The notes below the pieces were generated by a model. It was given only the letters and a program-made list of their open reading frames with translations. It had not been told where the DNA came from and did not search any database. A stretch of 64,000 bases of DNA from Thermocoleostomius sinensis A174 (lineage in GTDB: Bacteria > Cyanobacteriota > Cyanobacteriia > Elainellales > Elainellaceae): positions 2,395,026-2,459,025 of the forward strand of contig NZ_CP113797.1 of the NCBI RefSeq assembly GCF_026802175.1, read 5' to 3'. Positions 1,383-5,621 of this stretch are shown here, piece by piece. A program made the translations under genes and the position numbers. Each line of letters opens with the position of its first letter. Within the stretch, counting starts at the first letter, position 1.

Positions 1383-2972
1383 CTACTTCAATCCGTTGCG
1401 CTCTTGATACTCTAGAATAATTTGCACATTCTGCTTTTCTAAGGTTGATAGCAACTCATTAGGAAATTCATCCGGTGAATAAATTGGGGTATACCAAGGG
1501 CGACTATTAAAGTATGCTTGCAATGCTTCGTCCATAAATCGACGCCCATGCATGGCAAAGATGGCATTGCGGAGGATATCGAGTTCAAACGCCGTCTTTC
1601 CTGCCAAATCGACATCAGTGACGGGTCGGGTGGTGAGCCAAGCGAACTCATTCGATGACATGATATCGGATGATGCAACGTTGGGGGATTCGACATCAGT
1701 AGCGTTCGATGTCGATGCAGGAGTGGGCTGAGGCAGAGAGGGCGTGGGAACATCCGGTTGTGGGATTGTCGGCGTCGGAATTGCCAGCGGCGTTTGACTT
1801 GAATTCGTAGTCGGATTGCTGGTAGGCGACGATGGCGCATCGATGGGTGACGGTGATGCATTCGCTGCATCGGGGAGAGGCGGTGGGTTGACAGCAGGAC
1901 GCCGCAGCACCAACCCCAGTATCACAGCCGCTCCAATCAACCCACTGGCGATGAAACTGCCCAGAATAATGCCATTGTTGCGTTGCCCGGTGGCTGATGA
2001 TTGAGACGACGGAGCTAGTGGAGTCGATGGTTGAGATGAGACAGCAACAGTGGAGGGCAGGGTGGATGGATGAGTCGAGGGCACAAACGCTAAATCAGCA
2101 GCCATCACGGTTGTAGCTAGTTCAGGACTAGATGACGCTTGCAAGCCTTGCAAGGCCGATCGCATGGTTGCTGCCGTTGGATAACGATTGCGGGCATGAG
2201 ACTGAATCGCGCGATCAAGAACGTCCGCAAACTCAGGACTGATCTGAGGCGCATCAACTTGCCAGACATAGTCACCCGTTTGCGGATGCACCTGCAATTG
2301 CTGGGGCGCTTTGCCCGTCAGCAGATAGATTGCCGTCAACCCTAAACTGTAGAGATCGCTAGCAAAGACGGGTTTGCCCACAGCTTGTTCTGGCGGCATA
2401 TAGCCTGGTGTGCCAATAATGATTGATTGCGTTGGTTGCCCTTGAGAATTTACCACCGTTTGTACCGTTTCTTTTACGGCTCCAAAGTCGATCAATACAG
2501 GCTGTTGCGTCGATCGGCGCAGCATGATGTTATCGGGCTTTATGTCGCGATGAATAATCCCTCGCCGATGGATATAGTCTAAAACCGTGAGCAGACCGAT
2601 CAGTAAGGCTTTCACCGCTGCTTCGTGGTTTTGTTGAGGTTGCCCTGCTCGCAATTGCATCTGTTGAGTGAGGGTGACACCATCGATCCACTCTTGAACA
2701 AGATAAAACAAGCCGTCGGATTCAAAATAGGCATACAGTTTAGGAATTTGAGGATTGCCTTCGCCCAATTCCTCTAGAATGGCGGCTTCTCGCTGGAACC
2801 GTTCCTTCACCAATTGATACATTTGGGGCGGATCGACCACAGGCTTAAGCTGCTTGATCACACAGCGACGAGCAGAGGGTAGGTGAGTATCTTCTGCTAA
2901 AAATGTTTGACCAAACCCACCATCGCCGATCGTCTTCAGGATGCGGTAGCGGTGATTTAGCAGTTGTGTCAT
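1383..2972 (-). CDS. serine/threonine protein kinase with C-terminal YARHG domain
   Basis: An Hanks-type kinase of 529 residues. The kinase domain begins almost at the start (HRYRILKTIGDGGFGQTFLA, glycine-rich loop); VIKQL carries the ATP lysine (about K40), followed by IIHRDIKPDN, LIDFGAVK and GTPGYMPPEQ. A Ser/Thr/Pro-rich stretch follows, then one membrane segment (about 330-350, GIILGSFIASGLIGAAV), a long Pro/Ser/Thr linker, and a terminal YARHG domain (ELDILRNAIFAMHGRRF, then YFNSRPWY). The kinase would be cytoplasmic and YARHG outside the membrane. The reading frame stays open to 3032, but the ATG at 2972 directly precedes the kinase fold and matches the usual family start. YARHG is thought to be an extracytoplasmic sensing or cell-wall module; its ligand is unknown. 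Confidence 0.92.
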   Translation of the reverse strand: MTQLLNHRYRILKTIGDGGFGQTFLAEDTHLPSARRCVIKQLKPVVDPPQMYQLVKERFQREAAILEELGEGNPQIPKLYAYFESDGLFYLVQEWIDGVTLTQQMQLRAGQPQQNHEAAVKALLIGLLTVLDYIHRRGIIHRDIKPDNIMLRRSTQQPVLIDFGAVKETVQTVVNSQGQPTQSIIIGTPGYMPPEQAVGKPVFASDLYSLGLTAIYLLTGKAPQQLQVHPQTGDYVWQVDAPQISPEFADVLDRAIQSHARNRYPTAATMRSALQGLQASSSPELATTVMAADLAFVPSTHPSTLPSTVAVSSQPSTPLAPSSQSSATGQRNNGIILGSFIASGLIGAAVILGLVLRRPAVNPPPLPDAANASPSPIDAPSSPTSNPTTNSSQTPLAIPTPTIPQPDVPTPSLPQPTPASTSNATDVESPNVASSDIMSSNEFAWLTTRPVTDVDLAGKTAFELDILRNAIFAMHGRRFMDEALQAYFNSRPWYTPIYSPDEFPNELLSTLEKQNVQIILEYQERNGLK

Positions 2973-3088
2973 TATCCGAAAGCCTTTACTGGAAGCAGTT
3001 TCCTCTAGCGTAACCCAGCGAGTTGTTCCCACCCATTACGGCAGTTACCTAATAGAGAAGACGCAGATCTTAGGCCTTCATCCCCCAT

Positions 3089-3257: not shown

Positions 3258-4370
3258 CTAATATCGCAAGATTAAGGCGACTTGTTGATGGTCTGCTAAT
3301 GTTTTGTCGTCATCCACAAACACGACCTTGCCGCCCTTCGCCATCACTGACTCAATCAATTCATCAACGGCATCATCCATCACTTCAATGTCATCTAAAT
3401 CGTCTGTTGCTATGAGTTTCATGCCGCTTTGATCGACTCGGGCCGGATAGTGAAACTCTGCATTCACCAACAAAAGTTCGCCACGCCCTTCTTGAGCCGC
3501 TCGCCAAGCCTGCTCAATTCCTGAGGCACAAAGCTGTGCCCCTACAGCATTCTCCAATTTTTCTAGAGCTTGTTGACGCTGCTCAGCCAGTGCTTCTTGG
3601 ACTAGGGGATACACCAATTTGCCCAAATCGTGCGCAGAGGTTTTATCATAATTACCGCTTAACGTAGCAATGATTGCGTCTTTGTGCTCGGACACTTCAT
3701 TAAAAAAGCTGAAGTAGCGATCAATGCCCACTAGCACCAGCGGCAGAGGATCGGTTGCCATAAATGGTTTCAACGCTTCATCTGCTTTGCGGAAAAACTG
3801 ACGATGATGATCGTCCCGATAGGCCGAGGTGTTAATTCCTTCGCCGCCTGGAAGTTTGCTGCCACCGCCTGGTCCACCGTGAGTGAGTGGAAAATCCGGA
3901 TTTCTTACTTCTTCTAGCTCATCTAGAATACCGGAGAACAAGCTCGTAGACTGTTCGCTTAAGCTGAGCACCCAATATCGAGGGGTGCGGTTAAGGGCAA
4001 AGACCAGATCGCGGGTAGCAAACGTTTCATCGACAATGACGCGATCGCGGAACGGAAAGGGATGATAGTAAACACGATGCAATTCATGATTGGCAAAAAT
4101 CGCCAGTCCATCCAGTGTGTGAGGATAATCGATCGACTCTACGGCTTGCTCTAATTGCTTTAATACCGGACTTAATTCCCGATTAGAAAAATTTTGTTGC
4201 AAGCGTTCTTTGGCTTCGTCAACCAAGTTCTTGACTCGAATGGGATCTTGTTGGTTTTCAGGAGCCGTGCGATGGGTAGAGAGCAGAATCGAGACGGCTG
4301 GATAGCTCTGAATCGATTGCAGAAATTTCACGTCGTTATAGTTCATAACGGTTTTGGCGCTATTATCCAC
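3258..4370 (-). CDS. bacterial archaeo-eukaryotic release-factor-like protein (baeRF family, ribosome hibernation factor-like)
   Basis: A 370-residue soluble protein resembling the bacterial archaeo-eukaryotic release factor families (baeRF3-like), the group that includes the hibernation factor Balon. Visible features are an N-terminal domain (NYNDVKFLQSIQSYPAVSIL), a glycine-rich loop at about 165-180 (THGGPGGGSKLPGGEG) where aRF1/eRF1 proteins carry the GGQ hydrolysis loop, then DDHHRQFFRKADEAL, and a C-terminal L7Ae/eRF1 domain-3-like part ending near VFVDDDKTLADHQQVALILRY. Known relatives bind the ribosomal A site in stressed cells. There is no GGQ here, so peptide release is unlikely. 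It is divergent from rseP with about 156 bp between starts, a natural stress-promoter region. A second Met (residue 9) is an alternative start. Family is probable; ribosome binding is inference. Confidence 0.72.
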   Translation of the reverse strand: MDNSAKTVMNYNDVKFLQSIQSYPAVSILLSTHRTAPENQQDPIRVKNLVDEAKERLQQNFSNRELSPVLKQLEQAVESIDYPHTLDGLAIFANHELHRVYYHPFPFRDRVIVDETFATRDLVFALNRTPRYWVLSLSEQSTSLFSGILDELEEVRNPDFPLTHGGPGGGSKLPGGEGINTSAYRDDHHRQFFRKADEALKPFMATDPLPLVLVGIDRYFSFFNEVSEHKDAIIATLSGNYDKTSAHDLGKLVYPLVQEALAEQRQQALEKLENAVGAQLCASGIEQAWRAAQEGRGELLLVNAEFHYPARVDQSGMKLIATDDLDDIEVMDDAVDELIESVMAKGGKVVFVDDDKTLADHQQVALILRY

Positions 4371-4526
4371 ATCAACTATTATGTAAAGACTTTAGCAAAC
4401 AGAATTTTGATTAAAATCGCTCAAATGTCGGTTTCTTGCCCAGCCAAATCTAGATAAACCCCTTAATTTCCGTCGCCCTTTAGAATAGTAAGGATATAGA
4501 ACACCTATTTTGAGCGTTACGGGGTT

Positions 4527-5621
4527 ATGTCAGTTTTAGCGGCGATCGCAGTTCTTGCACTTTTAATTGTGGTTCATGAGTTGGGACATTTTTTAGCCGC
4601 CCGGCTTCAGGGAATCCATGTCAATCGGTTCTCGCTTGGGTTTGGACCCATTCTCTGGAAGTATCAGGGGAAAGAAACCGAATACGCTGTTCGTGCCATT
4701 CCACTGGGCGGCTTTGTTGGGTTTCCCGATGATGACCCCGATAGCAATATCCCCCCCAATGATCCAGATTTGCTGCGCAACCGTCCGGTACTCGATCGGG
4801 CGATCGTGATTAGCGCAGGCGTCATTGCCAACCTTATTTTTGCCTACTTGGTATTCGTGGCACAGTTTGCAGGCGTGGGGATTCCTGAAAAGTTTGACTA
4901 TCAACCGGGAGTACTAGTTTCCGAGGTGATTTCGCAAACGGCTCCGGCCGCTCAAGCAGGGCTACGATCGGAAGATTTAATTTTGGCAGTCGATGGTCGA
5001 TCGCTCGGTTCGTCGGAAACGGCAGTCAGAACCCTGATGGAAGAAATTCAAGCCAGCCCGAATCAGCCGATCGATTTGACGGTGCAGCGTAACGACCAAG
5101 AGTTGACAGTAACCGTCACTCCAGAAGCAGGAGAAGACGGTGTGGCTCGCATCGGCGTTCAGCTTTTGCCCAACGGCAGTATTACGGAATATCGTCGTCC
5201 CAACGGCATTGGCGAAGTGCTGATTCTGGCAGCCGAGCAGTTTCAAAATACCTTTGTGCGGATTGTGCAAGGCTTTGTTACCTTGATCACAGATTTTGGC
5301 TCGGTCGCAGGTCAAGTGGCTGGTCCAGTCAAGATTGTGGAGCAGGGAGCCGGCTTGGCTGCTGCCAACGCCAGTAGTCTGTTTCCGTTCACCGCGATTA
5401 TCAGTATCAACCTAGCGATTATCAATATCTTGCCGCTGCCAGCTTTAGACGGTGGACAGTTGGTATTTCTGCTGATCGAGGCATTGCGCGGTAAACCCTT
5501 GCCAAATCGGATTCAAGAAAACGTCATGCAAACAGGACTAGTGCTGTTGTTGGGGCTGGGGATCTTTCTGATTGTGCGAGACACGACGCAATTGGCTGTA
5601 TTTCAGCGCTTGTTTCAGTGA
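4527..5621 (+). CDS. rseP: RseP-type site-2 zinc metalloprotease (M50)
   Basis: A 364-residue intramembrane metalloprotease. HELGH (H17-H21) supplies the zinc ligands and catalytic glutamate in the first membrane helix, and LPALDGGQL near residue 310 gives the third metal ligand in a later helix. A single PDZ domain lies between (about 105-200, with GVLVSEVISQTAPAAQAGLR). Such proteases cut anti-sigma factors or other single-pass membrane proteins after a first cleavage. The length is that of one-PDZ cyanobacterial S2P proteins; E. coli RseP has two. The stop codon overlaps the start of nth, so the two are probably co-transcribed. The substrate cannot be read from the sequence. Confidence 0.95.
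   Translation: MSVLAAIAVLALLIVVHELGHFLAARLQGIHVNRFSLGFGPILWKYQGKETEYAVRAIPLGGFVGFPDDDPDSNIPPNDPDLLRNRPVLDRAIVISAGVIANLIFAYLVFVAQFAGVGIPEKFDYQPGVLVSEVISQTAPAAQAGLRSEDLILAVDGRSLGSSETAVRTLMEEIQASPNQPIDLTVQRNDQELTVTVTPEAGEDGVARIGVQLLPNGSITEYRRPNGIGEVLILAAEQFQNTFVRIVQGFVTLITDFGSVAGQVAGPVKIVEQGAGLAAANASSLFPFTAIISINLAIINILPLPALDGGQLVFLLIEALRGKPLPNRIQENVMQTGLVLLLGLGIFLIVRDTTQLAVFQRLFQ

Follow-up and report, generated by a model that had tools for sequence, protein, structure and literature searches.

What does a baeRF-like gene do beside a site-2 protease gene in a cyanobacterium? The gene in question lies in Thermocoleostomius sinensis A174, within a stretch of 64,000 nucleotides that is called the window throughout. 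Its product could hold ribosomes in an inactive state, as the hibernation factor Balon does, or clear stalled ones. It could act with its neighbour in a joint stress response, or it could have lost contact with the ribosome altogether. By analogy with characterized systems, the gene very probably encodes a Balon-type hibernation factor of the ribosomal A site, belonging to the Psychrobacter (AOC03_06830) branch.

Gene, family and predicted fold

The minus-strand frame is full length and intact. In its longest form it extends from 3258 to a GTG start at 4370 and encodes 370 amino acids. The start is placed instead at the ATG at 4346, because the homologues begin there. Features of the locus are collected in table 1. 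The Pfam model baeRF_family3 (PF18845) matches residues 131–296 of the 370-residue frame with an E-value of 4.6e-45. The score of 154 bits, compared with a cut-off of 31.5, therefore places the match far beyond chance. This is the one PF18845 match in the 5.81-Mb, single-contig genome. The NCBIfam equivalog model NF052287, ‘AOC03_06830 family ribosome hibernation factor’, gives 439.9 bits (cut-off 330), and the match covers residues 7–362 of the protein and positions 2–361 of the profile. Among solved chains, phmmer returns a single match at E < 0.001: chain 8rd8_B, Balon of Psychrobacter urativorans (E 6.6e-43, residues 6–362). The match table gives the molecule name of this chain as ‘methyl-accepting chemotaxis protein’; the entry title is that of the hibernation factor Balon.

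Table 1. Features of the Balon-type locus, in window coordinates.
Feature	Coordinates	Strand	Remarks
Ser/Thr kinase with C-terminal YARHG domain	1383–3032		adjoins the Balon-type gene on the side opposite rseP
Balon-type gene (AOC03_06830 family, Pfam baeRF_family3)	3258..4346	-	362 aa, ATG at 4346; open frame, Pfam, NCBIfam, homologue starts
C-terminal pelota/L7Ae-like domain, about residues 250–362	3261..3599	-	EF-Tu side in Balon
Middle domain (RNase H-like, release-factor), about residues 121–249	3600..3986	-	2hst alignment, PF18845
Glycine-rich loop, residues 147–172	3831..3908	-	position equivalent to GGQ/lasso loop; no GGQ
N-terminal domain, about residues 1–120	3987..4346	-	signature THRTAPENQQDPIRVKN; decoding-centre side by homology
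Residues 28–29, Ala-Pro	4260..4265	-	place of the only His-Pro of Balon; alignment of 55 rows
Region between the two start codons, 180 bp	4347..4526	.	promoter-like sites at chance level; no conservation among relatives
rseP-like site-2 protease (PDZ-bearing M50)	4527..5621	+	divergent neighbour; no conserved unit with the Balon-type gene

The predicted structure supports the same assignment. An AlphaFold2 model was built from an alignment of 55 rows, comprising the window protein and 54 of 80 loci from public genomes, and has a pLDDT of 91.2 and a pTM of 0.78. Foldseek ranks Balon chains first, then Msmeg1130, then archaeal RF1, and six of its top eight matches are Balon-type chains. In VIA-align comparisons, the model matches ribosome-bound Balon with Z 26.6 over 346–354 residues (rmsd 7.5 Å), Msmeg1130 with Z 24.1 over 348 residues (rmsd 6.0) and aRF1 with Z 18.2 over 346 residues (rmsd 10.8). 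Archaeal and eukaryotic RF1 proteins score about 18 and Pelota about 11. The large overall rmsd to Balon is inferred to reflect domain orientation in the free model. The original prediction depended on an N–M–C release-factor fold, and all three domains of the model find separate matches. Residues 1–120 align to the N domain of eRF1 (2llx, Z 10.9), residues 118–249 to its middle domain (2hst, Z 10.6) and residues 255–362 to the C-terminal domain of Pelota (5eo3, Z 10.2).

Comparison with the solved relatives places the protein more closely. Balon of P. urativorans (8rd8/8rdv/8rdw) is homologous over the full length, with about 28–31% identity, and both proteins combine the N–M–C fold with the absence of GGQ. 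The mycobacterial Balon homologues Msmeg1130 and Rv2629 have the same fold (Z 24.1 and 16.0) at about 17% identity, and the model NF052288 gives the window protein 37.6 bits, far under its cut-off of 480. The archaeo-eukaryotic RF1 (aeRF1) and Pelota/Dom34 proteins have the three-domain release-factor fold in common with it, but their structural scores are lower, and both GGQ and NIKS are missing from the window protein (NIKS as read from the translation). Curated profile, sequence match to a solved structure and fold thus strongly support the baeRF/Balon assignment first made from the letters alone, and the intact frame divergent from a site-2 protease is likewise as described. The gene encodes a new, intact member of the known Balon (AOC03_06830) family, and this reading is already captured by the curated NCBIfam model.

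The glycine-rich loop and the proposed mode of action

Balon is the best paradigm for how the protein may work. It sits in the A site with no need for mRNA, threads one loop around A2602, captures the tail of bL27 and binds EF-Tu(GDP) (PMC10901736). By analogy, the window protein would enter a vacant ribosomal A site under stress or in stationary phase, independently of mRNA. Its ribosome binding, any role of EF-Tu and the timing under stress are modelled on the solved Balon structures. The bL27 of this genome has the usual N-terminal tail and begins MAHKKGTG. The genome also encodes one protein of the HPF/LrtA-type family, whose gene (G000:C1:3713307) is far from the window; none was found within the 64 kb. 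HPF has been reported as the gene found most often beside Balon (PMC10901736), and none was detected at E 1e-8 within 4 kb of the 80 Balon-type loci, some of which are cut by contig ends.

At the lasso position the window protein does carry a loop. As had been noted from the sequence, it is rich in glycine (LTHGGPGGGSKLPGGEG) and lacks GGQ, reading NPDFPLTHGGPGGGSKLPGGEGIN at the position of the aeRF1 motif. Its GPGG...LPGG pattern recurs in Chloroflexota relatives and is absent in Balon. Phe152 is invariant in the 55 rows and Pro153 is present in 54; Gly158, Pro159 and Gly160 are kept in 39, 45 and 40 rows, respectively. Between window residues 147 and 177, the loop has 31 residues in 28 of the 55 rows and 28 residues in 17. 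This length is tighter than in baeRF families generally, for which the available text of a comparative study speaks of a ‘striking lack of constraint’ (PMC6514570). From the pattern of conservation, we infer that the loop touches the peptidyl-transferase centre in a conserved way and takes no part in catalysis.

Membership of the same superfamily, together with the rescue roles that a 2019 analysis proposed for baeRF proteins (PMC6514570), would also suit a Pelota- or Vms1-like rescue or release factor that clears ribosomes which have stalled, whether or not it hydrolyses the peptide. The loop bears directly on this alternative. GGQ occurs there in only two of the 55 rows (L061 and L089) and not in the window protein; no column from 147 to 172 has a conserved Gln, the highest count being 13 of 55. 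Balon, rather than Pelota, is the nearest relative of known structure (Z 26.6 versus about 11). Rescue is unlikely on these grounds, and the best reading is a hibernation factor, not a peptide-release enzyme.

The only His-Pro in the sequence of Balon is presumably the published HP motif of the decoding centre. All 55 rows keep the proline at this place (residue 29). One row has HP, and the histidine site is Ser or Ala in most. Since the presumed HP histidine is Ala in the window protein, where Balon has His-Pro, the decoding-centre contact may differ from that of Balon.

Neighbourhood of the gene here and in other genomes

The original prediction linked the gene to its divergent neighbour, whose Peptidase_M50 and PDZ domains are clear (E 7.3e-63). 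A common control region was thought to couple envelope and translation stress. The genes are indeed divergent, with 180 bp between the start codons, but this pair is missing at all 19 other family-3 loci and all 19 other rseP loci. None of the 19 other family-3 loci (20 with wider flanks; several cut by contig ends) has rseP, nth, the kinase or the NUDIX gene nearby. No family-3 gene lies upstream of rseP at any of the 19 other rseP loci, searched with flanks of about 1.5 kb; nth is found at 19 of 20 rseP loci, and the family-3 gene upstream only at the window's own. Two genomes (G173 and G039) have both genes, on different contigs. A promoter scan of the intergenic region is at chance level, with three sites against 2.0 expected, and the 180 bp upstream give no convincing alignment with the two nearest relatives, whose proteins are 74–85% identical. 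A lineage-specific adjacency gives no support to a joint envelope and translation response, and an rseP-linked module is highly improbable. As far as gene order and sequence can tell, the position beside rseP seems to be a chance local arrangement and not a conserved circuit for stress.

On the opposite flank, the YARHG-domain kinase of the window was not found at other family-3 loci. In one genome (G193), a protein kinase is divergent from rseP. It is only 39.5% identical to the window kinase and its C-terminal part is unmatched; orthology is not claimed, nor is an ancestral kinase–rseP order.

A different association is seen elsewhere in cyanobacteria. Cyanobacteria contribute 34 of the 80 loci, and 20 of these 34 have an arginine, cyanophycin, glutamate or acid-resistance gene within 4 kb. 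The genes counted were arginine deiminase, glutaminase, HdeD-like DUF308, GltS, cyanophycinase and an arginine-ornithine-type antiporter. The ten reference proteins were chosen after the neighbourhoods had been seen and were partly drawn from the tested loci, and many loci come from related genera. None of the ten was found near the 46 non-cyanobacterial loci, in 20 arbitrary 9-kb stretches from seven of these genomes, or at 20 rseP loci, which are shorter. Family-3 loci in those same seven genomes were matched in five of eight cases, one of the five only by an AstE-like gene.

Several individual loci illustrate the arrangement. L099, L103, L132, L107, L112, L106, L127, L081 and others lie near cyanophycinase, arginine deiminase and arginine-ornithine antiporter genes, and glutaminase, HdeD-like and NhaC genes are also nearby. 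Nodosilinea nodulosa PCC 7104 carries two Balon-type copies (L099 and L127); arginine deiminase and cyanophycinase genes lie near one of them and a glutaminase gene near the other. HdeD is among the neighbours already reported for Balon (PMC10901736). The literature search returned no paper that joins arginine deiminase with glutaminase, or cyanophycinase, to ribosome hibernation.

These neighbours were not found near the window gene or its two nearest relatives, and none of the ten reference proteins matches in the 64-kb window. Elsewhere, the T. sinensis A174 genome has two glutaminase genes and three DUF308 loci. It is conceivable, and put forward tentatively, that many cyanobacterial Balon genes belong to an arginine/cyanophycin–glutamate and acid-resistance island. 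Hibernation would then be tied to the mobilization of nitrogen reserves and the production of ATP and ammonia in dark or acid stress, and the branch of the window gene would have the same protein without the island. This association is more interesting than the rseP link, and is absent in the window genome.

Distribution, upkeep and significance

At E 0.001, NF052287 finds a match in 125 of the 388 genomes of the class; only 26 exceed the cut-off, and the window protein scores best. Used as a query, the window protein finds matches in 90 of 291 genomes. In 18 of these the copy is at least about 46% identical, and one more genome has only a short fragment. A second, commoner cyanobacterial baeRF group (for example L021, L024 and L030) matches Pfam baeRF families 3, 7 and 6 in the three members scanned. 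This group is about 19–34% identical to the window protein among the matches listed and, unlike it, falls under the NF052287 cut-off. Fourteen plasmid records match, all at under 60% identity, one of the 12 listed being cyanobacterial (Kovacikia minuta, 49%); these show at most that the family is mobile. Several Bacteroidota members (L115–L126, mostly Bacteroidales) adjoin a Clp-type AAA gene and an opposite-strand MacB/FtsX-like permease.

The window protein is 50–59% identical to most Chloroflexota-type rows (L054–L075), 44–48% to L098, L109 and L110 of the same type, and 46–53% to the main cyanobacterial clade. For the trees, 13 of the 80 loci were omitted at first: L053 (frame break), L084 (internal stop), L071 (truncated) and ten whose groups were already covered; the first 252 residues of L053 were later restored. 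A quick tree sets the window protein, L053 and L032 apart from the main cyanobacterial clade. In a more careful tree, built without seven long-branch or outgroup rows, constraining all 31 cyanobacterial rows to one group improves on the free search by 5.12 log units, with p-AU 0.613. Since this joint grouping is not rejected, horizontal transfer from Chloroflexota is not claimed.

The window gene is under purifying selection: pN/pS is 0.18 in comparison with L032 (360 codons) and 0.13 with L053 (250 codons), pS being saturated. Such constraint speaks for a gene that is in use. The copy in Cyanobacteria bacterium RM1_2_2 (L053:3078-4159) has a frame break and that in Nostoc sp. MG11 (L084:8001-9074) a stop codon; either may reflect assembly error or decay. 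That the window gene is a remnant or repurposed baeRF protein with ribosome binding lost, as the patchy distribution and the broken frame of the 85%-identical RM1_2_2 copy (on a contig with coverage of only 3.7) might suggest, is the least probable reading, given pN/pS of 0.13–0.18, the full-length intact frame and the invariant core residues.

Cyanobacterial members had been called not well described. This stands for experiments: among the papers listed by a literature search on baeRF, Balon and hibernation, none studied a cyanobacterial Balon experimentally. It does not stand for annotation, as NCBIfam already names the family. The available text of one review names only the HPF-type LrtA among cyanobacterial hibernation factors (PMC11102965), and the present analysis places an intact Psychrobacter-type Balon in this group. 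A misleading link to rseP is removed. Cyanobacteria that bear the gene would allow Balon to be tested against natural light–dark energy cycles.
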